Shown here one piece after another: positions 490 through 23,560 of a stretch of DNA of 24,318 bases (position 1 is the stretch's first letter; every line of letters starts with the position of its first letter). A program made the position numbers and the translations under genes. Origin of the DNA: a virus; IMG/VR virus record IMGVR_UViG_3300033571_020729, positions 1 through 24,318 of that record; one strand, given 5' to 3'. The notes under the pieces are model-generated. The model worked only from the letters and a program-made list of their open reading frames with translations. It was not told the DNA's origin and made no database searches.

Positions 490-532
490 CGGGCGCTACC
501 GAACCCACGACCCCCGACCCCCGCCCCCCCTA

Positions 533-560
533 CCCCCGCCCTTACCCAGAGCGGGGGTTT
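533..560 (+). terminator. Hairpin between terS and terL, T-tract merging into a promoter
   Basis: CCCCCGC (533-539) pairs with GCGGGGG (551-557) around an 11-nt loop, followed by TTTCTGTT. The short T-tract is weak for an intrinsic terminator, but it leads straight into the extended -10 motif at 558-570, as at three other intergenic sites in this window. Confidence 0.55.
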
Positions 561-570
561 CTGTTACCTT
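558..570 (+). promoter_or_regulatory. Extended -10 promoter motif for large terminase
   Basis: TTTCTGTTACCTT contains TG, one base, then TACCTT (565-570), ending 9 nt before the terL ATG at 580. Transcription from here would give a leader of only about 3 nt. There is no Shine-Dalgarno sequence between the motif and the ATG. No convincing -35 box is seen (TTACCC at 542-547, 17-nt spacing). It belongs to the shared late-promoter family described in the findings. Confidence 0.5.
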
Positions 571-579
571 ACGGCCAAC

Positions 580-2040
580 ATGCTAGTCCGAAAAGCCCAA
601 CCGCACGAGAGCCCGTTCACCCCGGCCGGTCCAGGCCAAGCCGCTGTCTGGAACGACAAAACCAGCCGCTACCTCATGGTTTTCGGCGGCTGGGGTTCGG
701 GCAAGTCCTACATGGCGGCGTCGTGGCTGCTCGACCTCCACACCCGAAACTCGTTCTGGCCCAAGGGTCACCCACGGGCCGGGCAACTGACGGGCATCGC
801 CTCGGCCACCACGGCCCCGACTTACGACCTCCTCGGCAAAATCAACATCCCGTACCTGCTCTCTGCGGCGGAGCGCATGGGCCTCAAGGCCGTTTTCAAG
901 AAGTCGTGGGGATCGTACCAGTCGGTCATCCACCTGCCGCAACTTTCCACGCCGGCCAGGCCCAGCCTGATTTTCTGCGTCTCGCTCGACAACCCCGAGC
1001 GCACAACCGGCTGGGAAGCGGGGGCAATCTGGTCGGACGAAATGAGCCGCGTCAAAATAAACGAGGCCGATCCAAAGGCGAATTCGTGGCTCCAGGTCAA
1101 GGGCCGCTTGCGCGGCGAGGTGGCGCACCGCCAGGCGCTGCTGGCGACCATGACCCCGGAAGGCTCGAAGTCCTACATGGTGCGCGTGGCCAACGAGCCC
1201 CAGGAGGGCCAGCGCGTTTTCACCATGCCGACCAAAGAAAACCCGGCCGTGGCCGAGTTCTACAAGTCGATGCTCGAAACCCTGCCGCCGGAAGTCGCGG
1301 AGCAGTACCTCTCGGGTGTGCCAATCGAGTCCAACAACACCTCGGTCTATTATGCCTTCGACCGCAAGAAGCACCTGACCCCGGACGCCAAACTGGACTT
1401 CAACTCGCAGAACCCGATCACCCTCACGGCCGACTTCAATGTCAGTCCGGGGATGCACCTGTACCTCGGGCAGTTCCACCCAGAACGGGGCGGCGGGGAG
1501 TTCGTCACGGCCCACCAGGTGTTTTTCAAGGGCCTCGACCTGCCGACAGTCATGGACAAGGCCTGCGAACTGCTCAAGTCCCTGCAAGGCGGTTCGTGGA
1601 AGCACCACGCACCATTGGAACTTTTCGGCGACCCGGCCGGGTCGGCGCGGAGCCTCGCCACCGGGCAGTCGTGCCACCAAATCATGCGAATGGCCTGCGA
1701 AAAGGCCGGGATACCTTACCGGGTCCGCATCAAGGCCAGCCACGACCCGGTGACCGACCGAATCGCGGCGGTGAACTTCGCGCTCAAAGACGGCAACGGC
1801 CAACCGCACTGGTTCATTCACCCGTCCTGCGACCGATTGATTGCCGACCTCGAACAGATGTTTTACGGACCGGACGGCAAGCCGGACAAATCGAACCTAG
1901 CGCTCTCTCACGCGAGCGACTCCGAGGGCTACCGAATCGCCTACCTGCGGCCGGTGCATGTGGCCGCCGTTCACAAAGAAGACCGGGTTACGACCTCGAT
2001 GCCGAAAATAATCACGCCGGAAGGCGGAGGCTGGGCGTAA
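580..2040 (+). CDS. terL: Terminase large subunit
   Basis: ATP-driven DNA packaging motor and headful or site-specific nuclease, acting at the portal of the empty head. Visible motifs: Walker A GGWGSGKS at residues 36-43; Walker B with catalytic Glu in AIWSDEM at 149-155; a coupling-like motif LLATMTPEG at about 187-195. An RNase H-like nuclease follows, with Asp285 in TADFN, Asp351 in LFGDPAG and a candidate third acidic residue at Asp447 (HASDSEGYRIAY). At 486 residues the length is normal for the family. The ATG at 580 is the only start that precedes the ATPase with a short N-terminus. A weak hairpin and promoter motif lie just upstream, and a longer hairpin follows the stop codon. Confidence 0.95.
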   Translation: MLVRKAQPHESPFTPAGPGQAAVWNDKTSRYLMVFGGWGSGKSYMAASWLLDLHTRNSFWPKGHPRAGQLTGIASATTAPTYDLLGKINIPYLLSAAERMGLKAVFKKSWGSYQSVIHLPQLSTPARPSLIFCVSLDNPERTTGWEAGAIWSDEMSRVKINEADPKANSWLQVKGRLRGEVAHRQALLATMTPEGSKSYMVRVANEPQEGQRVFTMPTKENPAVAEFYKSMLETLPPEVAEQYLSGVPIESNNTSVYYAFDRKKHLTPDAKLDFNSQNPITLTADFNVSPGMHLYLGQFHPERGGGEFVTAHQVFFKGLDLPTVMDKACELLKSLQGGSWKHHAPLELFGDPAGSARSLATGQSCHQIMRMACEKAGIPYRVRIKASHDPVTDRIAAVNFALKDGNGQPHWFIHPSCDRLIADLEQMFYGPDGKPDKSNLALSHASDSEGYRIAYLRPVHVAAVHKEDRVTTSMPKIITPEGGGWA

Positions 2041-2050
2041 ATCACTACCA

Positions 2051-2076
2051 AAACCCCTACCAAACCGTAGGGGTTT
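2051..2076 (+). terminator. Perfect 10-bp hairpin between terL and portal gene
   Basis: AAACCCCTAC (2051-2060) pairs perfectly with GTAGGGGTTT (2067-2076) around the 6-nt loop CAAACC. The A-run and T-run make it terminator-like in both directions. Its 3' T residues are also the first bases of the promoter motif at 2074-2086, so terminator and promoter share sequence. Confidence 0.65.
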
Positions 2077-2086
2077 CTGGTACACT
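2074..2086 (+). promoter_or_regulatory. Extended -10 promoter motif giving a leaderless portal mRNA
   Basis: TTTCTGGTACACT: TG, one base, TACACT (2081-2086), followed by exactly 6 nt (TAAGAA) and then the portal ATG at 2093. With normal sigma70 geometry the first transcribed base would be the A of the ATG. No Shine-Dalgarno sequence is present and no good -35 box is visible. An extended -10 can work without one. Confidence 0.6.
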
Positions 2087-2092
2087 TAAGAA

Positions 2093-3541
2093 ATGCCCTA
2101 CAAACCCACCGGAAAACCGAACGGTCGCCCGCCCAAGTCCGCAGCCACGGGGATGCAGACGACAGGCAAAATCGGCACTTCTTTTGCCTCCGGCGTTTTG
2201 CCGGGCTGGGGCGACACCGAGCCGAACATCACGATTTACCGTCGCATGAGGAAAGACCCGACCCTGGCCATCGCCCGCATCGCCAGCCAGGCCCCGGTCA
2301 AGCGCCTTATGTCCCGTGCGACTTTTCTCGGCGACCCGGCCAAGGCCCAGTTCATTGCCGATACGCTCTCGCCGGATCTTCGCCGGGCGCTGGTGCGCGA
2401 CTGCGCCGGCTTCGGCGTTGATTACGGCTACCAGGCCCACGAAATCGTCTGGGGGATCGCCCCGCTCGACGGCAAGCGGTGGGTTCCGATTGACTTCAAG
2501 CCGCTGCTGCCGGAAATAACCCAGCCGGTCTTGGACGATTACACGGGCGTCATCCGCTGCGTCAAGAACAAGGGCTACAAAGGCCCCGAGGTGATTCTCG
2601 AACAAGGCGATTTTTTCTGGTTCTCTCACGCTTCCGAAGCCCGCAGCCCGTTCGGCTCGCCGCGCATGGAAAACTGCCGTGTGGCTTGGAATGCCTGGGA
2701 AAAATGGTTCTTCAAGTTGGGCCAGTATGTGAACAAGGTGGCCGGCGTCACGCCGATGGTCGAGTACCCCACAGGTACGGGCCGTGATGAATTGGGGAGA
2801 GTTGTGGATAACTTCGATGTGGCCAACGCAATGCTTGCCCGCCTCGGGTCCGGCCACGGCGTTGCGATGCCGAACACGCTCGCGGCATGGGCTGCCGAAC
2901 TGGCTCAAAAAGGCGTGGATGTGGGCAAAATCCCGGCCTGGAACATCAAGTTCTTGGAGGCGTCCGCGCACGGCCAGGACTTGCTTGGGATTGGCGAAAA
3001 ACTGGATGTGTACAAGTTGCGGGCGTACATCACCCCGGAACGGTCGCTCATCGAGGCCAAGCACGGCTCCAAGGCGGACAGCGGTTCGGCCGTGGATATC
3101 TTGACGGAAATGGCCTCGGATGTCGCGCACGAAATCGTCGATGCCGTGAACAGGCAAATCATCCCGGAAATCTTGGCCAAGAATTTCGGCGAGGAGTACC
3201 GCGACGCGGTGAAGATGCAGATCCCGGCCGGCGAGGGCGACGAGAGCAACGCCATGCGGACGGCCCTGGACAAGTTGCTGGCCACGCAGCCGGGCGTGGA
3301 CGCGCTGCTCCAGGCCATCGACCTCGATGCCTCGGCGGACATGGCCGGCCTGCCCCGCAAGAGCGGCGAGAGCCTCAACACACGCGCCACGGACGCGGTG
3401 GACTACCACCGCAAACAGGCCGAGAAAACAGCACAAAAAACCGCAGCGGCCGGCGGCTCCGTCAAGCCCCCCGCGCAGGCAAAACCCCCGCAGAGCGGAA
3501 CCCAGAACCCGAATTCCAGCCGCCAGGCTGGCGGTAAATGA
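2093..3541 (+). CDS. Portal protein
   Basis: Forms the dodecameric ring at one head vertex through which DNA enters and leaves. The 482-residue protein lies between terminase and the protease-scaffold gene, the canonical portal position. It has a basic, low-complexity N-terminus, an alpha/beta stem and wing region (about 45-280), and a long C-terminal helical segment. In that segment HGSKADSGSAVDILTEM and DAVNRQIIPEILAKNFG resemble the DUF935 / Mu gp29-type portal. The tail beyond about 440 is rich in Ala, Lys, Gln and Pro and probably disordered. The stop codon overlaps an ATG (ATGA at 3538-3541). Portal function is well supported by order and length; the exact family is an inference from remembered patterns. 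Confidence 0.85.
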   Translation: MPYKPTGKPNGRPPKSAATGMQTTGKIGTSFASGVLPGWGDTEPNITIYRRMRKDPTLAIARIASQAPVKRLMSRATFLGDPAKAQFIADTLSPDLRRALVRDCAGFGVDYGYQAHEIVWGIAPLDGKRWVPIDFKPLLPEITQPVLDDYTGVIRCVKNKGYKGPEVILEQGDFFWFSHASEARSPFGSPRMENCRVAWNAWEKWFFKLGQYVNKVAGVTPMVEYPTGTGRDELGRVVDNFDVANAMLARLGSGHGVAMPNTLAAWAAELAQKGVDVGKIPAWNIKFLEASAHGQDLLGIGEKLDVYKLRAYITPERSLIEAKHGSKADSGSAVDILTEMASDVAHEIVDAVNRQIIPEILAKNFGEEYRDAVKMQIPAGEGDESNAMRTALDKLLATQPGVDALLQAIDLDASADMAGLPRKSGESLNTRATDAVDYHRKQAEKTAQKTAAAGGSVKPPAQAKPPQSGTQNPNSSRQAGGK

Positions 3542-3579
3542 CGCACACCGGATCGAACTCAAGGTACAATGGAGACACC

Positions 3580-4731
3580 ATGACCGACATTTCTTGCTTT
3601 CCTCCCGAAGTTCAAGCCAAAATCACCCGCGACGAGCAGGGCGTCCCCCGACTCCGCATGGCCAAGGAAATCCTGCGCGAGGGCATCTACAAGCACCCCG
3701 TCAAGAAGTGGACCTGGCGGGTCGATTCCAAACTGCTGAACCAGTTGGCCACGACCGGAAATAAGATGGTCCAGGCCGGAATCGACCCCGAAATCACCGT
3801 GAACCATTCCGCATCGGTGGCCTCGAACATCGGGTACATCAAAGATTTTTATGTGTCCGGCGACACGCTCATGGGAATCCACGAATTGATTGGTGCCGAC
3901 AGCATCGCCCTCGCTCTGAAAAACAAGAATTCCTCCGTGGAATTCGATGAAAACTTCAAGGACGGCTCGGGCAAAGCCTGGGGCCCGGCCGTTACTGCAA
4001 ACAGTATCGTTTTGCAGCCCGTCATGAGCAACCAAAAGGGGTTCAAAATCGCCGCTTCACTGAAGGGGCTTGACGCCGCGAAAGATGGTTGTTATCATTT
4101 TGCCATGCCTACCGAAACCAAAAAGCAAGAAGAATCGGAAACCCCCGCCCACGAGGCAGCCGAAACCCCCGCTTACGAGACGGCGGAACACACGGCGACC
4201 AAGCACGCTGAACTCATGCGGGCCCACGGCGAACTGGCCAGGAAGCACGCTGAACTGTCCAGCCACTACGCCAGCCTCAAGGACAGCCACGAACAGGCCA
4301 AGAACAAGTTGGCCGAAGTCGAACGCTCCAAGGCTGAAATGGAAGCGGCCCACAAGGAACTCAAGAAGAAGATGTCCTTGGCCGAAGACACCTCGGAAGC
4401 CTCCGTCGAACTGTTCAACGAACGCGCCGAGAGCGTGACCGAGCGCCTCCTGTCCCTCAAGGGCAAGCGCGTCGAACTCACCCCGGCCCTCATCGAAAAA
4501 CTGATTCCGGCCCTGACCACCGGCGAAGGGCGCAAGTTCATGCTCTCTCGCGTGTCGGCCGAAGTCGATTCTCCCGCCAAGACCCTCGTGGCCGCTCTGG
4601 CCTCGGAGGCCAAGGATCGCATCAGCACCGGCCTGCAACTGTCTCTGAACGACGACGGCAGCGTGCAAACCGATTCGATTCTGCCGGACATGCTGGCCTT
4701 GGTGAACAAAAAGAAACCCGGCGACCGCTAA
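3580..4731 (+). CDS. Prohead protease fused to scaffolding protein
   Basis: 383 residues in two parts. Residues 1-165 resemble Mu gpI-type prohead proteases: a conserved His76 (ITVNHSAS), a beta-rich core GYIKDFYVSGDTLMGI, and candidate nucleophile Ser119 in NSSVEF, followed by DGSGKAWGPAVTANSIVLQPV. From about 176 the protein becomes highly charged, Glu/Lys/Ala-rich and coiled-coil-like (about 190-280), typical of a scaffold that the protease later digests. Start: the ATG at 3580 has GGAG 5 nt upstream. An in-frame ATG at 3538 that overlaps the portal stop is the alternative and would add 14 residues. TACAAT at 3565-3570 could be a -10 box. An internal start (4105) probably yields scaffold alone. 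Confidence 0.82.
   Translation: MTDISCFPPEVQAKITRDEQGVPRLRMAKEILREGIYKHPVKKWTWRVDSKLLNQLATTGNKMVQAGIDPEITVNHSASVASNIGYIKDFYVSGDTLMGIHELIGADSIALALKNKNSSVEFDENFKDGSGKAWGPAVTANSIVLQPVMSNQKGFKIAASLKGLDAAKDGCYHFAMPTETKKQEESETPAHEAAETPAYETAEHTATKHAELMRAHGELARKHAELSSHYASLKDSHEQAKNKLAEVERSKAEMEAAHKELKKKMSLAEDTSEASVELFNERAESVTERLLSLKGKRVELTPALIEKLIPALTTGEGRKFMLSRVSAEVDSPAKTLVAALASEAKDRISTGLQLSLNDDGSVQTDSILPDMLALVNKKKPGDR
4070..4098 (+). promoter_or_regulatory. Internal promoter for a scaffold-only transcript
   Basis: TTGACG (-35, 4070-4075), a 17-nt spacer and TATCAT (-10, 4093-4098) preceded by TG plus one base (extended -10). This near-consensus sigma70 promoter lies inside the protease-scaffold gene. 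The next ATG, at 4105 and in the same reading frame, is 6 nt beyond the -10 box, so the predicted mRNA begins at that ATG. Confidence 0.72.
4105..4731 (+). CDS. Nested scaffolding protein (internal, leaderless start)
   Basis: In-frame with the larger gene; codon 176 of the fusion is the ATG at 4105. The product would be 208 residues (MPTETKKQEESETPAHEAAE at its start): a charged, Ala/Glu-rich, coiled-coil protein without the protease domain. It would serve as the internal scaffold on which capsid subunits assemble. Nested scaffold genes inside protease genes are known in phages, for example lambda Nu3 within C and Mu Z within I. The evidence here is the strong internal promoter placed exactly before this ATG and the position of the start at the protease-scaffold domain boundary. 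No Shine-Dalgarno sequence precedes it, which fits a leaderless mRNA. Confidence 0.68.
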   Translation: MPTETKKQEESETPAHEAAETPAYETAEHTATKHAELMRAHGELARKHAELSSHYASLKDSHEQAKNKLAEVERSKAEMEAAHKELKKKMSLAEDTSEASVELFNERAESVTERLLSLKGKRVELTPALIEKLIPALTTGEGRKFMLSRVSAEVDSPAKTLVAALASEAKDRISTGLQLSLNDDGSVQTDSILPDMLALVNKKKPGDR

Positions 4732-4787
4732 GTCGCAACCCTTCCCCTTCCTAAACATCAGAAACCCCCCACTTTAGAGGAACTCCC

Positions 4788-5492
4788 ATGTCTTACGGCT
4801 ATATCGGCGGCCTTCCCGGCGTCCACACTCAACTTGCTGCTGGCTACCAGTCTGCTGTCATCCAAAAGCCGGAATTCCTGGTCGGCGGTGGCATCATCGA
4901 CGGCACCTTGACCTACGCCATCAACAATGGCACCGACAACCTGGTCATCCTGGCCGGCACACTCATGAAGCAGAACGCTGCTGGTGCCTTCCAGCCGTTC
5001 ATCCCCGCCAAGACCACGGCCTCGGCCCTGTCCAGCGCCACCACCGTCACCGTGGGCGTTGCCGGTGCCCAGGCGATCTACCGCGCCTTCGGCTCGACCG
5101 GCGCGGGCACCCTGACCGCCCTGACCACCGGCTCGTATGTGACCGTCACCGTCACCGCCATCGACCTCGTGGCTGGCACCCTGACCTGCTCGGCCTTGTC
5201 GGCTGCCTTGGAGAACGGCGCTCCGCTGCTGTTCGGCACCGTGACCGCTTCCAACGCTGGTGGCGTGCTGGCCTTCACCGGCGACAGCATCGGCGTCTGG
5301 GTGTCTGACTTCCCGAACACCATTGCCAACCCCGGCGTTGGCCAGGCGACCTCTTGGGGCGCTCCGGTCACCGGCGGCTTCCTCGGCTTCAACCGCATCG
5401 ACAACGCGCCCACCACGGCCTCGTCCATCCAGGCCTTCAAGACCTTGGTGCAGGCCATGATGCCCCGCATGGACATCAACCAGACCTTCTAA
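4788..5492 (+). CDS. Probable head decoration protein
   Basis: 234 residues rich in Ala, Gly, Thr and Val with alternating beta-strand patterns (SATTVTVGVAGAQA, GSYVTVTVTAIDLVAGTLTC). It lies between the scaffold and major capsid genes, where lambda-like phages encode the trimeric decoration protein (gpD) that stabilises the expanded capsid. The segment GGGIIDGTLTYAINNGTDNLVILAGTLMKQ, with a beta-barrel-like pattern, fits that fold. It is longer than lambda gpD (about 110 residues), suggesting an extra domain. The start is supported by GAGGA 6 nt before the ATG. Similarity to any named family is not certain, so the function rests on position and composition. Confidence 0.55.
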   Translation: MSYGYIGGLPGVHTQLAAGYQSAVIQKPEFLVGGGIIDGTLTYAINNGTDNLVILAGTLMKQNAAGAFQPFIPAKTTASALSSATTVTVGVAGAQAIYRAFGSTGAGTLTALTTGSYVTVTVTAIDLVAGTLTCSALSAALENGAPLLFGTVTASNAGGVLAFTGDSIGVWVSDFPNTIANPGVGQATSWGAPVTGGFLGFNRIDNAPTTASSIQAFKTLVQAMMPRMDINQTF

Positions 5493-5554
5493 GCCTTCAC
5501 CGGCCCTCCTGACCAAAACAAACCCCCCGCCAACCCTTCCACGGAACCACCGCC

Positions 5555-6643
5555 ATGAAAAGCATGTATCAGATTCTTTCGTCCAAGAACCTCACTGGCC
5601 TCATCACCAGTGTCCAGGGTGGCGTTCCCACCGACATCCTGCCCGAGGCCTTCTTCTCTCTGAAAGAAGGCACCACGGGTGACTATGCCACCTGGCATGT
5701 CAAGCAGAACACCCGTCAGGTCGCCCGCCGCGCCGAGTACGGTGCTGCCGCCCCCGAGCGCGACAACCTGGGCCTCCAGGAACTGCCGGTGAAACTGCTG
5801 CACGCGGTCGAGAAGAAGACCTACTCGCCCACCACCATCATGAACCTCATGAAGCCCGGCACGATGCAGGCCGACAAGATGGGTCGCGCCGAAGTCGCTC
5901 GCCAGTCCGAAGAATTCGCCCGCTTGTTCTTGAACCTGCGTGCTGCCTCGGTGTACTCCTTCATGCGCTCCGGCATCATCTACTTCGATGCCAGCGGCAA
6001 CCTGCTTCCGTCCTCCACCGGTGCCACTTTCAGCATGGACCTGGGCGTCCCGGCCGGCAACAAGGGCAACTTCGGCGGCATCTTCTCGGCCAACTGGTCG
6101 GTCGCCACCACCCCCATCGCCGCGCAGATCGAAGCCTTGCAGTTGGACTGCCGCAAGAACACTGGTCGCCAACTGACCACCGCCTACTACGGCAAAAATG
6201 TGTTCAACACCGTGTTGAAGAACAACGATGTGATTTCGCTCCTGCGCTCCAACAACATGCTGGCCTACGCCACCACCAACCGCAAGTTGCCTGACGGCTT
6301 CCTCGGCATCGACAAGTGGCTCCCGGTCAGCGGCGCGTTCTTCGCTGATAAGAACAATGCCGCCACCGAGTTCTTCGCTGGCGACTACATCGGCTTCACC
6401 CCGACCCTCGACTCCAGCCTCTACGGCATCGTGGAAGGCACCTACCCGGTTCCGAAGTCGGTTGGCTCCGTGGCCAGCGACGGTGCGACCGCCGAAGACC
6501 TGTTCGAGGAAACCCAGGGCATGTTCTCTTACGCCACCGTGAGCGCGAACCCTCCCCGCATCGAGCATGTGGCCGGCGACACCTTCCTGCCTCTCCCCAA
6601 GGTTCCGAGCGCGTTCTACATGGGCACGATCAACGGCAACTGA
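5555..6643 (+). CDS. Major capsid protein
   Basis: 362 residues, after the scaffold and decoration genes. The N-terminal and central pattern fits the lambda gpE family of HK97-fold capsid proteins: VPTDILPEAFF, then TWHVKQNTRQVARRAEYGAAAPE, a helical LMKPGTMQADKMGRAEVARQSEEFARLFLNLRAASV, and later strands TAYYGKNVFNTVLKN and KWLPVSGAFFADKNNAATEFFAGDYIGFTP. Codons are strongly biased to C-ending forms and the gene is highly GC3-rich, as expected for the most abundant virion protein. Only a weak GGA lies upstream of the ATG, so expression may depend on coupling or on a distant promoter. The N-terminus looks complete; whether it is cleaved by the protease cannot be seen. Confidence 0.88.
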   Translation: MKSMYQILSSKNLTGLITSVQGGVPTDILPEAFFSLKEGTTGDYATWHVKQNTRQVARRAEYGAAAPERDNLGLQELPVKLLHAVEKKTYSPTTIMNLMKPGTMQADKMGRAEVARQSEEFARLFLNLRAASVYSFMRSGIIYFDASGNLLPSSTGATFSMDLGVPAGNKGNFGGIFSANWSVATTPIAAQIEALQLDCRKNTGRQLTTAYYGKNVFNTVLKNNDVISLLRSNNMLAYATTNRKLPDGFLGIDKWLPVSGAFFADKNNAATEFFAGDYIGFTPTLDSSLYGIVEGTYPVPKSVGSVASDGATAEDLFEETQGMFSYATVSANPPRIEHVAGDTFLPLPKVPSAFYMGTINGN

Positions 6644-6670
6644 TAAGGCATCTGGAAAACCCAAACAAAG

Positions 6671-6695
6671 CACCTTGCGAAAGCAGGGTGTTTTT
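6671..6695 (+). terminator. Intrinsic terminator after the major capsid gene
   Basis: CACCTTGC (6671-6678), the stable GAAA tetraloop, then GCAGGGTG (6683-6690) and five T residues. One G-T wobble is present. The stem can be extended outward by the AAAG upstream and the TTTT downstream. It is the best-formed rightward terminator before the end of the module and overlaps the promoter for the next gene. Confidence 0.75.
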
Positions 6696-6703
6696 GTTAT
6701 GCT
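6675..6703 (+). promoter_or_regulatory. Promoter embedded in the terminator, leaderless connector mRNA
   Basis: TTGCGA (-35, 6675-6680) lies within the 5' arm and loop of the hairpin. A 17-nt spacer leads to TATGCT (-10, 6698-6703), with TG plus one base just upstream (extended -10). Exactly 6 nt (CCCTGC) separate the -10 box from the ATG at 6710, predicting a leaderless mRNA. Terminator and promoter therefore use the same 33 bp. Confidence 0.7.
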
Positions 6704-6709
6704 CCCTGC

Positions 6710-7240
6710 ATGTCCAGCAACTACATCACCCGCGCAGACATCGAGAACGAAGTCGGCATCGACAATGTTTTCGTCTGGGCCGACCTTGACAACACCCAGG
6801 ATGCCGTCAAGATCGCCGCACGAATTCAGCGGGCCATAGATGTCGCCTCGGACTATGTGGACGACCGCCTGCGAACTTCGGTGTATGCGGTGCCTCTCAC
6901 TTCGGTCGGAGGCACTCTGTACTCCTTCAACAGCATCGTTGCCCGCTTTGCCGCCTCTTGGCTCTACGGGAGCCGTGGGCTGCGGGACGGAGATAAGACG
7001 GCCGACCGGGTAAAGGCCTTCCGCGAGGACGCCCAGACCGAACTGGAGGAACTTTTGTCGGGCAAAATCCATATCGCTGCCGTCCGGCGCACTGTTGGCG
7101 GTGTGGAGATCCCCCGTGTCGGTGGCGGCGTGCGCTTCCCGTTCAGCGTACTTCGCGGCGAAGGGTTCAACGGGTGGCCCGCTGGCGTGCCCTCCGCAGA
7201 CGGTCAAAATGCCGGTGCGTTCTCCGCCTCTTGGACCTAA
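6710..7240 (+). CDS. Head-tail connector protein (DUF1320 / Mu gp36-like)
   Basis: 176 residues. The start SSNYITRADIENEVG and the following helices (AVKIAARIQRAIDVASDYVDDRLRTSV, VARFAASWLYGSRG, AFREDAQTELEELLSGKI) match the pattern of DUF1320 / Mu gp36 and of gp6-like head-completion proteins, which close the portal ring and make the joint with the tail. Its position directly after the major capsid gene agrees. The C-terminus (GVEIPRVGGGVRFPFSV) is likely exposed. No Shine-Dalgarno sequence is present, in line with the leaderless promoter. The next gene starts 3 nt after the stop. Confidence 0.72.
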   Translation: MSSNYITRADIENEVGIDNVFVWADLDNTQDAVKIAARIQRAIDVASDYVDDRLRTSVYAVPLTSVGGTLYSFNSIVARFAASWLYGSRGLRDGDKTADRVKAFREDAQTELEELLSGKIHIAAVRRTVGGVEIPRVGGGVRFPFSVLRGEGFNGWPAGVPSADGQNAGAFSASWT

Positions 7241-7243
7241 CCC

Positions 7244-7777
7244 ATGTCAGAAGGCTCAATCCTACCTGTCAGCACGGACCCGCTGTCGCAAGTCTATTCG
7301 GACTTCTGCGACGCGCTGTTCTCGCACCCTCTGGTGGCCGCTGCCGTTCGCCCAGGTAACAGGATTCGGTTCGATGGGAAAAACCCCGAGCCGATGAAGT
7401 ACAACAAATCCACGGCGGACTGCCCGGAACTTTCGGTCCACCTGCAAAGTTACTCCGGCGGCAGTCAAAAGGACGCCAACCGCCAGGACTCAACGATCAC
7501 CTTCATGCTCCGCGTCGATTCGGGAGAGCAGAGGGCCAACCGAGGCGTCCTTCCGGTCTGGTACGCCTGCATCAAGGCCCTGGTTGCAATGCGCGGAGGC
7601 CGAGACCCAATCAACGGAAAAGACATCGGCGGAGAGGGCGTGGTCGTGAGGATTAGCCAAGCCCCGGAAGGATTCGCCACATTAACGGACATGGGCCAGA
7701 CCGACGGCATCAAGAGTTGGAGCAGTTATTGCCGCGTCATCCTGACCCTGCGTTTCGGTATTGACAACATGCCGTAA
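7244..7777 (+). CDS. Probable tail terminator or minor head-tail protein
   Basis: 177 residues of mixed alpha/beta character. The N-terminal helix PLSQVYSDFCDALFSHPLVAAAV, the middle strands CPELSVHLQSYSG and STITFMLRVDS, and the C-terminal beta segment SYCRVILTLRFGI recall phage tail terminator proteins (lambda gpU / Mu gp37 type), which cap the tail tube. The position between the connector and tail tube genes fits. There is no Shine-Dalgarno sequence: the ATG follows the previous stop after CCC (TAACCCATG), suggesting termination-reinitiation. No signature motif fixes the family. Confidence 0.5.
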   Translation: MSEGSILPVSTDPLSQVYSDFCDALFSHPLVAAAVRPGNRIRFDGKNPEPMKYNKSTADCPELSVHLQSYSGGSQKDANRQDSTITFMLRVDSGEQRANRGVLPVWYACIKALVAMRGGRDPINGKDIGGEGVVVRISQAPEGFATLTDMGQTDGIKSWSSYCRVILTLRFGIDNMP

Positions 7778-7789
7778 AGGCCATACAAT
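7761..7789 (+). promoter_or_regulatory. Near-consensus promoter for the tail tube gene
   Basis: TTGACA (perfect -35, 7761-7766), a 17-nt spacer and TACAAT (-10, 7784-7789). The -35 box lies in the last codons of the preceding gene. The predicted start site is near 7796, giving a leader of about 42 nt that contains the GGAG ribosome-binding site of the tail tube gene. This is the closest match to sigma70 consensus on the rightward strand. Confidence 0.75.
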
Positions 7790-7837
7790 CCCGGCAATCC
7801 CCCACCCAATCACCCCCCGCTCTTTCTGGAGACTCCC

Positions 7838-8326
7838 ATGCCCGCAGGCGTAATTACCGCATCGAACGCACTCATCAAAATCGGCAATGTCGTGGACGAC
7901 GCTTTTGCCACGGCCGACGCCGGCCTTTTGACCATCTCGGACTGCGCTGCTTGGAGCATCAGCGAGACCGGCGAAATCAAGGCCTACCGTTCCTGCAACA
8001 CGGCCGGCTTCAAGCGCAAACTGCTGGGCGGGCGTGACTTCAAGGGCACCCTCAAATACTTCTTCAATGAGGGCGATCCGGTCACCGATACCGTTCGAGC
8101 CGGCACCAAACTCCTGTTCAAGTTGTACTTGGACCAGACCGCCAACCCCTCGAACTCCAGCGGCACCCACGAGGACACCTTCTACATCTGCCCGGCCATC
8201 GTTTCCGATGTCAAGGTGGACGCGAACATCGACGGCGGCGATGTGATCCCCTGCGAAATTTCGTTCGAGGGCAATGGCACCCTGTACTACCCTGGCGATA
8301 CCGTTCCTGCCAGCATCCCGGCCTAA
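7838..8326 (+). CDS. Major tail tube protein
   Basis: 162 residues, predominantly beta with a predicted tail-tube-like layout: DAGLLTISDCAAWSIS, a strand IKAYRSC, FKRKLLGGRDFKGTLKYFFNEGDPV, then AGTKLLFKLYLDQ and strands around VDANIDGGDVIPCEISFEGNGTLYYPGD. The last segment resembles the closing strands of tail tube and minor tail families. A strong dedicated promoter (7761-7789) and a good GGAG 6 nt upstream of the ATG imply high expression, as expected for a protein needed in many copies. The gene precedes the chaperone and tape measure genes, the usual order. Confidence 0.75.
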   Translation: MPAGVITASNALIKIGNVVDDAFATADAGLLTISDCAAWSISETGEIKAYRSCNTAGFKRKLLGGRDFKGTLKYFFNEGDPVTDTVRAGTKLLFKLYLDQTANPSNSSGTHEDTFYICPAIVSDVKVDANIDGGDVIPCEISFEGNGTLYYPGDTVPASIPA

Positions 8327-8383
8327 CAGATAGCGCAGGAAGCGGCGGCAACCGCAACCGGCAAAAATAAAACCACGAGGTTT

Positions 8384-8419
8384 CCCTCCTACCCTTGCCG
8401 GGGACAGTGAGGGTTTTTT
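8384..8419 (+). terminator. Weak hairpin with six-T tract after tail tube gene
   Basis: CCCTC (8384-8388) can pair with GAGGG (8409-8413) across a 20-nt loop, followed by six T residues. A smaller hairpin, AAACC/GGTTT, sits just upstream at 8370-8383. The T-tract merges into TTTTTGTTTATCT (8415-8427), a member of the promoter family. The stem is weak and the call is mostly by analogy with the three better sites. Confidence 0.4.
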
Positions 8420-8427
8420 GTTTATCT
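8415..8427 (+). promoter_or_regulatory. Late-promoter-like motif before the morphogenesis gene
   Basis: TTTTTGTTTATCT resembles the shared 13-nt motif, but the -10 hexamer (TTATCT) lacks the conserved A at its second position. The following 12 nt include CCGGAG, an SD sequence for the ATG at 8440. It may be a degenerate promoter. Confidence 0.35.
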
Positions 8428-8439
8428 CCCGGAGCAGAT

Positions 8440-8916
8440 ATGCCTGTCACCCTTGACGAGTACGAAAGAGCCTTCTCGGATGCCGCTAACCTGCAAGGGA
8501 TGCAAGGGGCCGGGGAAGCGTACCTCCAAGGGATGTGGGTACGGGCCAGAAATCAGGGCGATGGAGATTGGCCTCCGCTGTCGGAGTACACCCCTGCCAA
8601 TCGCAGGGCTCGTCCGTTCAGCCGCAGCCCAATCCTGTCTGACAGTGGCTCTCTTATCGAGGCCCTCCTTCCGGGCGCTCCAGGGCACCTGGTAGAGCCT
8701 TCAACCGAGGGGTGTCTGGTGGGGTTCTCTAATGACCCACACCCTACGGCGACCGAGGAAGGCGCTGACACCTACGGCCTACTGGCCCGTCGCCACGCGC
8801 TAGGCCAAGGAAACCTGCCAATCCGAACCATCTTGGTCGAGCCTGTCGGACCCGTCTTAGAATCAATCGTCGCAGGCGCAAATACCCGAATCAATTCCGT
8901 CCTCTCAACCATTTAG
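8440..8916 (+). CDS. Phage virion morphogenesis protein (Mu gpG / HK97 gp10-like)
   Basis: 158 residues. The pattern SPILSDSGSLIEALLPG, then CLVGFSNDPHPTATEEGADTYGLLARRHALGQGNLPIRTILVEP, matches the virion morphogenesis family, in which a completed strand core is followed by an (I/L)P.R motif near the C-terminus. Such proteins finish the tail or the head-tail joint. The start at 8440 is chosen because CCGGAG lies 6 nt upstream; an in-frame ATG at 8395 would run through the hairpin. In many phages the equivalent gene precedes the tail tube gene, so its place after it is slightly unusual. Codon use is less GC3-biased than that of the capsid genes. Confidence 0.6.
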   Translation: MPVTLDEYERAFSDAANLQGMQGAGEAYLQGMWVRARNQGDGDWPPLSEYTPANRRARPFSRSPILSDSGSLIEALLPGAPGHLVEPSTEGCLVGFSNDPHPTATEEGADTYGLLARRHALGQGNLPIRTILVEPVGPVLESIVAGANTRINSVLSTI

Positions 8917-9546: not shown

Positions 9547-12492
9547 ATGTCCACGAATGTCCCCATCCTCGGCGCAACCGTCAAATTTGACGCAGATCTT
9601 AAGTTGTTCACGGACAAGGTGAGTGAGGTTAGGTCGATCATTGACGGCCTAACCGGAAGTGCGGCGAAGGTAATTCCGTTCGATCCCAGCATGGCCGAGA
9701 ACGCTCGCGCCGCTGCGGCCTCAATCGAGCAGATGTCCAAGGCCTTAGACAAATCAGACTTTGCCACGAAGATGAAGTCGATGGCCCCTCAACTCATGGA
9801 GATAAAGAGGGAGTTCGACGCGGTTGCGGCCAGCGCAGAAACTGCCGGCGCGAAGATGTCTGCCACTTTTTCGGCCGCTTGCGCCAAGGCAAAAGAACTA
9901 AGCCTAGACCTCAAGGCCGTAAAAAGTGAAATGTCTGGAATTTCCTCCGGTGCGGAAGAAGTCGGAGCAAAGATAGCGTCCGCGTTTTCTGCCGCAGGAG
10001 CGCAGATACGGGCTGTTGGGCAGGAACTTTCCAAACTGATAGAGTCCTTGAAGGCAAGCCTAAATGCCATCATGGCGAGCATTGCGGAAGCCACGAGCAA
10101 GTACGAGGAACTTTCGTCCAAGGCAGCGGCAGCATCGAAAAAAGTGGTGGAGGAGAACTCAAAAGCGCAAACCAAATCCGCTTCTGATTCAGCGTCTTCT
10201 TTGGACTCCGTAATAGGAAAGTGGTTTAGTCTATCCGCAGCCATCAAACTGGCTAGGATAGCGATTGAGGCGTTTACGGACTCCACCAAAAGGGCGTTTG
10301 AGATATATCGGGCATCTGCCAAGTTCGGAATCAATGTGCAGGAGTTGCAGTACCTTTCCATTGCAGCCAACGATACCGGCTTGAATTTGACCGAACTAAG
10401 TAACGCCCTGCGTTACATGGAAACCAACATCGGCAAGGCGCAGACGGGTGTGAAACTGGCCGTCTCCAATTTGGCATTGCTCGGGTTCACGGCACAGGAC
10501 TTGAAGGGAAAACTGCCGGAAGAACAGTTGGCCATGTTGGCTGACAGTTTTGTTGGCATTGAAGATCCTGCCCGCAGGTCTGAAATAGCAATGGCAATTT
10601 TCGGCCGCCAAGGCGCTAACATAATACCTTTGCTATCTCTCGGAGGCACCACTCTCCGTGAGATGTCCATTCGGGCAAAGGAACTTGGGTCCACCTTGGA
10701 CGAAAAGGCCCTTAAAGCCCTAAAAAATGCACAAGTAGCCGGCCTAGAACTGCACATAGCACTAGGAAACCTAGCCAGCAACCTATCTACTTTTTTTGCC
10801 GGGTCTGTTACGGATGCCACGAAAGTGATGACTGAATTTTCGGCGTCCTCCACTAGGGCTCTTGAGTCCTATAACAAGTGGGGCAAGACGGATAGTGTCA
10901 TGGGAAAGATATTCCTTACCATCGACAACTTGAAAGTTCTTACTGGGGCGTGGACTGACTTTTTTAAGGTGACGCGAGTAATCCCTGCCCTGATTGAATT
11001 CGGTTTGACCGGCACCATCAAGTCAAACACGCTAGCGGCACTGGAAAATATCGGAGCCGTGTACCGGATGACTGACGCTCAAGCGGCAGCAGCAGCGCGG
11101 GCACAGGCGAAAGCGGATGCCGTAGCCGCGTCCTTGAAAAACGAAGCCCTGGCCAATCAAAAATTCCAGGAAGTTCTCGCAGAGGGCGCTCGGCACGAAG
11201 CGGAGATCGAAAAAGAGCGCGAGAAGTTTAGGAAGCGCAAAGATATGAGTACGGCATCGAGTCAGTTGCAGGCTGAACTGGAAGGTATCGTGCAATGGCG
11301 CAAAGAGGCTATTGTGGCAGCCGAAGAAGCAGCCAAGCGAGAAGGGATGCTGGCGAGAGAGAAAGGTGCCGAGGAGTGGAAGGTAGCCCAGATCGTTAAA
11401 GACCGGCTGGACAAAGAAACCGCCTCCGTCAATATGAAAACGATGGAGAAGGCTGCCGCTGCCGAAGCCTTTAGGACCGAACGGATGGCGATAGAGGCCA
11501 GAGAGAAATCGGAAGTGACCCTAAAAAAACTGGAAGACGATGCCGCTGCCGGCAGACTCGCTTCCGCAAGGGAACACCTCAAAGAGGTGCAGGCCGCCAA
11601 CATCCCTGCTGACATCCAGGCTGCAAAGGCCTTGGTCGAAGCGGCCGGCCGTAAGGACGCCAATGACGAACTGAAAAAAGCGCAAAACTATTTGGCCAGA
11701 ATCGCGGGCTCTTATCAGGACCAAGTGGATGCCCTCGTGGAACTCCGTGGGTATCAGACGGACGAGGAAAAATCCCTCGCGGCCCAAGTTGTCGCAACCC
11801 GCATGTTGGCTGACGACACCAAGAAATTGGCCCAAGAAGAAGAAACTCGCAAAAAAACCATCGAGCAGATATTCGAGCGCGAGCGCGAGGCCCTCGCCAA
11901 CCTGGGCAAGTCCCAAGCCCAGTTGAATGTCCTCAAACTGCAAGCGGTCGGAGCAACCGAAAAAGAGGTGGCTGCGTTCCAAGCCCTTGCCGATAAGCAC
12001 GACCGAGACGCCAAGGCTCTTTCGGATAGGAAGAAAGAAGAACAGGACGCCAAGAGCCTGCTAGAGTCGGCCATGACCAAGGAAGAAAAACTCGCCGAAA
12101 GTATAGCCCAAGTTCGTCGATTCGAGGCAGACCAAATCTACACCAAGGAGCAAGCCCAGAGGGTCATCAATAGCCTTTTGGAGAAGGAAAACAAACTCCG
12201 AAAGGAAACGGTCGGTATGTACTCCGACGGCCTTTCCTTGGTGCGGGCAATGTCTGCTGCCGGTTTGGCCGACGAGAAGACCGGCAGGGCTGGTGGCCGC
12301 TTCGGCGGTGTCGTCCCCGTTCCGGTCCCGGCACCGATGCCTCCTGCTCCTGCCGGCCTCCCCGGCGTGGTAAACTCCGTCATGGATCGCATTGCCACCC
12401 TTAACGAAGGCATCCTGGCCATCCTCTCTCGCTGGGACACGGACGGCATCAAAATCAAGTCGCTTCCGCCCATCACCGCCACTTACGCCTAA
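9547..12492 (+). CDS. Tape measure protein
   Basis: 981 residues, the longest gene here, following the chaperone pair. It sets tail length and fills the tail lumen before ejection; at the usual 0.15 nm per residue it predicts a tail of about 145 nm. Residues 1-230 are helical and Ala/Ser/Lys-rich. Residues about 232-420 match the tape measure core (ASAKFGINVQELQYLSIAANDTG, then RSEIAMAIFGRQGANIIPLLSLGG). About 510-900 is charged coiled coil. The end is Pro-rich (PVPVPAPMPPAPAG). No Shine-Dalgarno sequence is evident. Codons such as ATA, CTA and AGG, rare in the head genes, are frequent in the first two thirds, suggesting separate ancestry. Confidence 0.9.
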   Translation: MSTNVPILGATVKFDADLKLFTDKVSEVRSIIDGLTGSAAKVIPFDPSMAENARAAAASIEQMSKALDKSDFATKMKSMAPQLMEIKREFDAVAASAETAGAKMSATFSAACAKAKELSLDLKAVKSEMSGISSGAEEVGAKIASAFSAAGAQIRAVGQELSKLIESLKASLNAIMASIAEATSKYEELSSKAAAASKKVVEENSKAQTKSASDSASSLDSVIGKWFSLSAAIKLARIAIEAFTDSTKRAFEIYRASAKFGINVQELQYLSIAANDTGLNLTELSNALRYMETNIGKAQTGVKLAVSNLALLGFTAQDLKGKLPEEQLAMLADSFVGIEDPARRSEIAMAIFGRQGANIIPLLSLGGTTLREMSIRAKELGSTLDEKALKALKNAQVAGLELHIALGNLASNLSTFFAGSVTDATKVMTEFSASSTRALESYNKWGKTDSVMGKIFLTIDNLKVLTGAWTDFFKVTRVIPALIEFGLTGTIKSNTLAALENIGAVYRMTDAQAAAAARAQAKADAVAASLKNEALANQKFQEVLAEGARHEAEIEKEREKFRKRKDMSTASSQLQAELEGIVQWRKEAIVAAEEAAKREGMLAREKGAEEWKVAQIVKDRLDKETASVNMKTMEKAAAAEAFRTERMAIEAREKSEVTLKKLEDDAAAGRLASAREHLKEVQAANIPADIQAAKALVEAAGRKDANDELKKAQNYLARIAGSYQDQVDALVELRGYQTDEEKSLAAQVVATRMLADDTKKLAQEEETRKKTIEQIFEREREALANLGKSQAQLNVLKLQAVGATEKEVAAFQALADKHDRDAKALSDRKKEEQDAKSLLESAMTKEEKLAESIAQVRRFEADQIYTKEQAQRVINSLLEKENKLRKETVGMYSDGLSLVRAMSAAGLADEKTGRAGGRFGGVVPVPVPAPMPPAPAGLPGVVNSVMDRIATLNEGILAILSRWDTDGIKIKSLPPITATYA

Positions 12493-13979: not shown

Positions 13980-14188
13980 CCCTCTTTGAGTCTAGGGAGC
14001 CTGTCTGCCGGTCTTGCCGGTTCTGCGGAACCGATGTGCGCGGCAAGAAGATGATCCGGCGAACCGATTTCTCGGTCAAGTGCATACCTGCCCAATGCAA
14101 CTGGTACTGCATAGCGGACGAAAAGGCCCAGTGCCCCTTGAGTAAATGGCCCGTTTCTGATACCCTACCTGCACCCCCAGGAAACTGA
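13967..14188 (+). CDS. Small cysteine-rich protein, possible zinc-binding
   Basis: 73 residues that overlap the preceding gene by 13 nt and end 2 nt before the next ATG. Cysteines occur as CRSCRFCG (a CxxC plus CxxCG-type knuckle), CIPAQCNWYC and AQCPLSK, so a metal-binding or disulfide-linked fold is plausible. The overlap, spacing and residue pattern support a real gene. It is the first of three Cys-rich proteins (also 14611-15624 and 15615-15908). The coding region contains the promoter candidate at 14138-14166. No family is recognised. Confidence 0.6.
   Translation: MCSLTLFESREPVCRSCRFCGTDVRGKKMIRRTDFSVKCIPAQCNWYCIADEKAQCPLSKWPVSDTLPAPPGN
14138..14166 (+). promoter_or_regulatory. Promoter for the distal structural genes
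   Basis: TTGAGT (-35, 14138-14143), 17-nt spacer and TACCCT (-10, 14161-14166). The segment TTTCTGATACCCT (14154-14166) is a full match to the shared late motif TTTYTGNTANNNT. The predicted start near 14173 leaves a short leader that contains AGGA 8 nt before the ATG at 14191. This is the only member of the family that keeps a ribosome-binding site and no hairpin. Confidence 0.62.
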
Positions 14189-20784: not shown

Positions 20785-20815
20785 AAAACCCCCTTCCTCG
20801 CGGTTGGGGGTTTTT
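20785..20815. terminator. Bidirectional terminator between convergent modules
   Basis: AAAACCCCC (20785-20793) pairs with GGGGGTTTT (20806-20814) across a 12-nt loop, with a fifth T after it. It is a strong terminator for the rightward module and, with the A-run on the other side, for the leftward genes. The element GGGGTTTTTCGG occurs twice (20807 and 20822 areas), so the region may have been duplicated. Confidence 0.85.
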
Positions 20816-20837
20816 CGGTCTGGGGTTTTTCGGCCTG

Positions 20838-23256: not shown

Positions 23257-23456
23257 GCCTCCACCCAGGTCAGAATTTCATCTTCGAGCCTGTTGGCCTT
23301 GTCTAGGGCCTGGCGGGCGTAGAACCGAAAGTCTCCGGCCTCGTCCGTGCGGCCGGCACGCTCCAGCCACTCGGCGTGTTCCTTGCGGGTGGCGGCCAGT
23401 TCAACAGTCTCGCGGAACTCCCGGACAAGGGAGGTCAAATCCTTTTGGGCTGACAT
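23253..23456 (-). CDS. Small helical protein, unassigned
   Basis: 67 residues. Helical and charged throughout (SLVREFRETVELAATRKEHAEWLERAGRTDEAGDFRFYARQALDKANRLEDEIL). GGAG lies 8 nt before the ATG and the stop overlaps the next start by ATGA. The leader between this gene and its upstream neighbour consists mostly of four exact 18-bp repeats. No family is recognised. Confidence 0.65.
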   Translation of the reverse strand: MSAQKDLTSLVREFRETVELAATRKEHAEWLERAGRTDEAGDFRFYARQALDKANRLEDEILTWVEA

Positions 23457-23470
23457 GGTAATCTCCGGTA

Positions 23471-23560
23471 GGTGTTCGGACCGAGGCAGGTGTTCGGACC
23501 GAGGCAGGTGTTCGGACCGAGGCAGGTGTTCGGACCGAGGCAGGTGTTCAGACCGATTCC
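23471..23560. repeat. Four exact 18-bp direct repeats plus one diverged copy
   Basis: The unit GGTGTTCGGACCGAGGCA occurs four times without a gap (23471-23542). A fifth copy, 23543-23560, has GGTGTTCAGACCGATTCC. Each exact unit contains the interrupted palindrome TCGG-A-CCGA. The fifth copy overlaps the last codons of the upstream gene, and its one A for G change supplies the gene's stop codon. Confidence 0.95.

Follow-up and report, generated by a model that had tools for sequence, protein, structure and literature searches.

Can a transcription terminator, a promoter and a start codon be fused into one short element, and is the late region of a phage cut into transcription units by such elements? 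The question is raised by a 24,318-bp viral fragment, IMG/VR virus record IMGVR_UViG_3300033571_020729 (the window, by which we mean the whole stretch analyzed), whose plus strand carries an array of late genes ordered from a terminase-like gene to tail genes. Ahead of three of these genes, encoding the large terminase (terL), a Mu-type portal protein and a Mu Gp36-like head-tail connector, the T-tract of a terminator-like hairpin is joined to an extended -10 box (Table 1). Judged from their sequence, the segments at 532-580, 2051-2093 and 6671-6710 are probably compact intrinsic terminators combined with extended -10 promoters, which would yield leaderless or near-leaderless mRNAs and separate adjacent transcription units. 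An equally compact arrangement is met again in many unrelated phages.

Anatomy and spacing of the fused sites

An initial annotation of this DNA had reported five copies of a 13-nucleotide (nt) pattern, TTTYTGNTWNNNT, and had proposed that each may stop one transcript and start the next on or close to the following ATG. A pattern search of the window located all five on the plus strand (558, 2074, 6691, 8415 and 14154), together with an additional copy at 2614 that sits within the portal gene. The same search found no copy on the minus strand and none of the reversed pattern. The assertion that this repetition is not due to chance is borne out by 300 dinucleotide shuffles of the late region, in which the motif occurs on average 0.08 times and at most once, compared with the six copies observed.

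Hairpins had been assigned to the first four of the five sites. Those at 2051-2076 and 6671-6690 are strong and that at 532-558 is good; the fourth, at 8391-8414, is weaker. The anatomy of an intrinsic terminator, namely a G+C-rich stem-loop that lies after a stop codon and is followed by a T-tract, is present at the first three, with a short tract at two of them. The loop of the 6671-6690 hairpin is a C-GAAA-G tetraloop of the GNRA type. The proposed fusion of a terminator to a promoter that would start at the next ATG fits 558, 2074 and 6691. It is not supported at 8415, which has a Shine-Dalgarno (SD) sequence and a poor box, or at 14154, which has an SD and no hairpin.

The positions of the boxes relative to start codons are nonrandom. 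There are only 10 TGNTANNNT boxes on the plus strand of positions 1-20800, and the gap between the box and a following start is exactly 6 nt for three of them (2093, 4105 and 6710) and 9 nt for a fourth (580); the distances initially given for the portal and connector genes (6 nt) and for terL (9 nt) are therefore correct. We estimate the chance that two of nine boxes fall at that exact spacing before one of 23 starts as ~4e-5, with the internal start at 4105 excluded. TGN stands directly ahead of a TANNNT hexamer in TGTTACCTT, TGGTACACT, TGTTATGCT and TGTTATCAT. The predicted +1 nucleotide is 577 for the terL box, 3 nt ahead of the ATG, and is the A of the ATG itself for the portal and connector boxes.

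At a distance of 17 nt, the three fused sites match the -35 consensus at three, two and four of six positions, respectively, and the site ending at 4098 matches at five of six. The best of the fused sites in this respect is 6691-6703, where TTGCGA lies 17 nt upstream of the box, within the hairpin. Because four near-consensus TTGAC-17-TANNNT promoters are found in the same DNA, transcription by a sigma70-type enzyme is plausible. Scans of the window for sigma70 promoters and for terminators gave totals not above those of shuffles, and such scans are informative only in the position of their matches relative to starts.

The absence of an SD, previously noted for the starts at 580, 2093 and 6710, is confirmed and extends to 4105. 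None of these four starts permits an anti-SD duplex of -4 kcal/mol or lower, compared with 12 of the 17 other late starts. With a Fisher p value of 0.09, this contrast is suggestive within the window but not conclusive.

From this anatomy we infer the following course of events. The stem-loop and short T-tract would end the upstream transcript, and the last T of the tract would also serve as the T of the TG in an extended -10 promoter recognized by the primary sigma factor of the host. Transcription starting 7 nt past the box would then begin on the ATG, or 3 nt ahead of it in the case of terL, such that the portal and connector proteins would be read from leaderless mRNAs lacking an SD and terL from a near-leaderless one. 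A fourth leaderless promoter, at 4070-4098 and without a terminator, would supply a nested scaffold message from 4105. The late region would in this way be cut into separately promoted units, one of which ends after the major capsid gene. In readthrough RNA, the start codon would be internal, behind a hairpin and without an SD. For this reason, such RNA is expected to be poorly translated, and each gene would rely on its own promoter.

The element in other phages and alternative explanations

Viral contigs were scanned for GGGGTTTCTGNTANNNT followed by an ATG at 3-12 nt (scan 1; at least 111 stretches) and, in a second scan, for a version with a different T-tract. Among the matches listed, those of scan 1 that have a fitting hairpin cluster at gaps of 6-7 nt and open real reading frames, and scan 2 repeats this picture. 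After clustering of these matches, the gap is 6 nt in 23 of 66 hairpin-bearing sites versus 7 of 100 sites without a hairpin (Fisher p = 7e-6). The window is unusual in having several copies, because ten of the scanned records have the strict form only once each.

The gene upstream of the element encodes a major capsid protein or a capsid-type structural protein in five scan clusters (L029, L033, L111, L153 and L203), as it also does in the cultured Pontimonas phage phiPsal1 and in the window. The association with capsid genes is not exclusive, since elsewhere the element stands ahead of recombinase, primase, oxygenase or sigma-like genes; in the cultured Streptomyces phage BillNye, a copy (73461-73483) is found among tRNA genes. 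The strict pattern was matched 15 times, with mixed spacings, in 257 Gb of contigs from bacteria and archaea. As this number is near the chance estimate of ~7, the element in its strict form is not in common use on chromosomes.

Two side observations emerged from these scans. Five of the 15 chromosomal matches are in Patescibacteria-type genomes (L127, L129, L133, L135 and L136), which may use compact terminator/leaderless promoters too. Separately, the terminators at L148:330, L151:13477 and L206:7802 have different stems and a common, conserved loop containing GGATCCGCCTC.

No close relatives of the window's own genes were found. In protein searches of viral contigs and phage records, the terminases obtained are only 26-28% identical, and the portal and capsid proteins matched no relatives. 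The motif is absent from the 60 nt ahead of terL in five distant viral relatives, which are too distant for a test.

Several scan 1 loci belong to phages related to phiPsal1, in which the element lies between the capsid and glycosyltransferase genes. The phiPsal1 junction reads hairpin-TTTTTTTGTTACCCT-TTAGGC-ATG, with a 6-nt gap to an ATG (record position 6979) that is the annotated gene start. We therefore assembled homologous junctions by the glycosyltransferase protein only, taking the best 80 viral loci; 78 were evaluated, including phiPsal1, and many are related. A hairpin lies close upstream of a box at 64 of the 78, six of the remaining junctions having no box and eight no qualifying hairpin. 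At 31 of these 64, the box is 5-7 nt before the ATG and there is no SD, the gap being exactly 6 nt in 28. At 29 others, the box is 21-29 nt from the start and an SD is present, usually GAAAGG. The last four are arranged otherwise; in three of them (L261-L263) there is another hairpin, and CGCTATGCT precedes the ATG by exactly 6 nt. Judging from these junctions, the conserved part would be the terminator-promoter fusion, and leaderlessness would be one of the two modes of translation start that follow it. In the evolution of the junctions, leaderless and SD-led starts alternate cleanly downstream of a single conserved candidate promoter.

GCGTAG forms the loop of 21 distinct hairpins, most of them from the junctions, and at most positions of their stems several Watson-Crick pair types occur. 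Because the stems differ between phages yet remain paired, an RNA hairpin is supported over a protein-binding DNA dyad. At the L269-L298 junctions, the terminator loops share GCGTAG(G), which is complementary to the CCTACG of the SD leader (CCTACGAAAGG) in many of these genes; the match could be fortuitous, or loop and leader might interact in readthrough RNA.

The occurrence of the same architecture in other phages strongly supports a terminator-promoter fusion at three of the five sites originally proposed, because the 6-nt peak is confined to hairpin-bearing sites and the predicted element is conserved at junctions selected by protein. Several observations weigh against this reading. TTTCTG is a weak T-tract at 558 and 2074, so termination there may be partial; neither of these sites has a good -35 element; and the terL spacing is 9 rather than 6 nt. 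The scans include related phages, so their counts are not independent events, and the count of stem covariation was extended only while pairs hold, which favors pairing.

The late genes might instead form one operon that is read from upstream promoters and translated without SDs, in which case the hairpins would be ordinary bidirectional terminators of a compact genome whose T-rich ends mimic -10 boxes by chance. T-tracts do favor TG..TA..T, the starts at 9547, 12498 and 13458 have neither an SD nor a box, and the 8415 site fits such a picture. We consider this explanation unlikely, however, given that the 6-nt peak appears in hairpin-bearing sites only and that the box is kept at 64 of the 78 homologous junctions despite diverging flanks, also where an SD replaces leaderlessness. 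Moreover, the terminator-free site at 4070-4098 has a -35 element and the same 6-nt spacing.

If the promoters are real, the hairpins might still not terminate transcription, and could instead be 3' ends that block RNases or structured leaders of longer transcripts, or the inverted repeat could be bound as DNA by an activator that replaces the -35 element. The dyad is located where a class II activator would bind, and two of the three sites have short TTTCTG T-tracts. Nevertheless, stem sequence, stem length and loop vary with compensation, as in RNA structure; UUCG and GAAA loops occur at some sites; and long T-runs directly follow the stem at many homologous sites, all of which make nonterminating hairpins decidedly improbable. 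It might also be that promoters and terminators are both active and that initiation occurs a few bases upstream or at varied positions, giving leaders of 1-6 nt. The fusion would then be right and the exact leaderless claim wrong, as the terL spacing of 9 nt and the gaps of 5 and 7 nt among homologous junctions might suggest. The gap is exactly 6 nt in 28 of the 31 leaderless-type homologous junctions, however, and we regard short leaders as very improbable.

The internal start at 4105 and other features of the window

The strongest box of the set, TGTTATCAT, was missed by the initial annotation. It lies exactly 6 nt ahead of an in-frame internal ATG at 4105, whose A is the predicted +1 nucleotide, and no terminator is found there. 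A long helix is predicted over residues 202-291 of the 383-aa protein, after the internal Met176, with block pLDDT values of 87-91 over most of it in a single-sequence model. Such a helix is expected of a scaffold, and in nested protease-scaffold genes a coiled coil follows an internal start in the same frame, as predicted here. The upstream part (3580-4104) gave no Pfam match and no recognized protease domain, and its structure model is of low confidence. Together with the model of the helix, the position of the box suggests that a nested scaffold gene begins at 4105 and is served by a leaderless promoter of its own, and 4105 is likely to be the protease/scaffold boundary.

Table 1. Features of the late region in window coordinates
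Feature	Position	Strand	Details
Small-terminase-like gene	ahead of hairpin 532-558	+	
Intrinsic-terminator-like hairpin, good	532-558	+	ACCCCCGC / GCGGGGGT, 11-nt loop; sequence, RNA fold
T-tract joined to extended -10 box	558-570	+	TGT TACCTT; 9 nt to terL ATG 580
terL, large terminase, 486 aa	580-2040	+	PHROG phrog_2, 1.4e-16; no SD
Terminator-like hairpin after terL, strong	2051-2076	+	AAACCCCTAC/GTAGGGGTTT; fold -21.4 kcal/mol for 2041-2100
T-tract joined to extended -10 box	2074-2086	+	TGG TACACT; 6 nt to portal ATG 2093
Portal gene of Mu type, start predicted to be leaderless	2093-3541	+	PF06074, 1.3e-15
Protease/scaffold-like gene, 383-aa protein	3538 or 3580 to 4731	+	
TACAAT box	3565-3570	+	9 nt ahead of alternative ATG 3580 (GGAG SD present); sequence
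Near-consensus promoter inside the 3538/3580-4731 reading frame	4070-4098	+	TTGACG (4070-4075)-17-TATCAT; extended box TGTTATCAT at 4090-4098
Nested scaffold gene, 208 aa, predicted to be leaderless	4105-4731	+	long coiled-coil helix
Gene between protease/scaffold-like and capsid genes	4788	+	
Major capsid protein E gene	5555-6643	+	PF03864, 7.7e-9; phrog_29
Terminator-like hairpin after capsid gene, strong	6671-6690	+	CACCTTGC-GAAA-GCAGGGTG; fold -26.7 kcal/mol for 6650-6720
T-tract joined to extended -10 box	6691-6703	+	TGT TATGCT; 6 nt to connector ATG 6710
Head-tail connector gene (Mu Gp36-like), start predicted to be leaderless	6710-7240	+	PF07030, 1.3e-8
Consensus promoter before 7838 gene	7761-7789	+	TTGACA-17-TACAAT; ~42-nt leader, SD GGAG
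Weaker terminator after 7838 gene	8391-8427	+	hairpin 8391-8414; poor -10-like TTATCT
Further head and tail genes after connector, tape measure, then tail genes	tape measure at 9547	+	
Ordinary promoter candidate	14154-14166	+	TTTCTGATACCCT; TTGAGT 17 nt upstream; 24 nt to ATG 14191; SD CAGGA

Two of the sites initially grouped with the fused elements are better explained otherwise. At 8415, the TTATCT box is 12 nt from the ATG at 8440, and a GGAG SD (8431-8434) overlaps the predicted +1 nucleotide; given this SD and the poor box, the site is probably not leaderless. The copy at 14154 has no hairpin and is ruled out as a terminator-promoter chimera.

The capsid gene ends (6643) just ahead of the fused element at 6671-6710. 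We infer that the late region is composed of separately promoted units that comprise the scaffold-to-capsid genes (4105-6643), the connectors (6710 on), the 7838 gene alone, and then the rest. The structure model of the 7838 protein is uninformative (pLDDT 32), and to call this product a tail tube would be to rely on gene order only.

A strong terminator at 20787-20830 marks the end of the rightward late genes and faces leftward genes. For the latter, the minus strand has near-consensus promoters at 21887-21859 (TTGACG-17-TATGAT) and 23910-23882 (TTGACC-17-TACAAT). Each overlaps a related sequence (AAGGGTAT..TAC..CTAGTA) of opposite orientation, possibly a shared operator. An 18-bp unit (AGGTGTTCGGACCGAGGC) is repeated in tandem about five times at about 23467-23552, in the leader of the minus-strand gene starting at 23456.

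Significance and relation to known systems

If the proposed terminator-promoter fusion is correct, promoter, terminator and start codon would constitute one module of 40-60 bp, with which phages that use host RNA polymerase would set separate levels for capsid and neighboring genes. The module can be found from sequence alone and would therefore improve the annotation of start sites and operons in phages that have not been cultured. The cultured phages phiPsal1 and BillNye allow it to be tested directly, and it would be a natural setting for the question of local RNA polymerase recycling after termination.

In the gene pairs C/Nu3 of phage lambda and I/Z of phage Mu, the 3' part of the protease gene gives rise to an in-frame scaffold. 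The window resembles these phages in its predicted nested in-frame scaffold, and its portal and connector are Mu-type. It differs in the predicted internal promoter 6 nt ahead of the internal ATG; to our knowledge, a promoter ahead of the scaffold ATG is not part of the classical lambda and Mu descriptions.

Leaderless messages are known from Thermus phage P23-45. Its middle and late genes are on extended -10 promoters able to work without a -35 element, and the phage factor gp39 shifts the host enzyme; the accessible part of the source describes no terminator fusion (PMC7403470). No gp39-like sigma-remodeling gene was identified in the window fragment, although no dedicated search was made. 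Leaderless SigA-type promoters are also known from Cluster O mycobacteriophages such as Corndog (PMC4351075). The same source lists phage terminators followed by TTTCT or TTTGT, as in the window, whereas in its accessible part the leaderless promoters and the terminators are described separately, with no fused element.

Single-molecule assays indicate that, after intrinsic termination, RNA polymerase can remain on DNA, diffuse and reinitiate nearby (accessible parts of PMC6978380 and PMC6978322). These assays used other templates, whereas terminator and promoter are fused in the window. Because local reinitiation is known from this work, a coupled hand-off is possible: after release of the capsid mRNA at the T-tract, host polymerase might stay on the DNA and be handed to the -10 box a few bases away, tying downstream leaderless output to upstream traffic, so that the fusion would do more than save space. 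Hairpin, TGNTANNNT, 6 nt and ATG would then form a recurring phage device of repeated evolutionary origin. We put this functional coupling forward as a tentative and rather doubtful extension of the terminator-promoter reading. No description of a fused terminator/leaderless promoter was found in the literature searched, in which most subscription papers were out of reach. The parts, an intrinsic terminator and an extended -10 leaderless promoter, are known, and it is their fusion into one recurring module that appears to be new.

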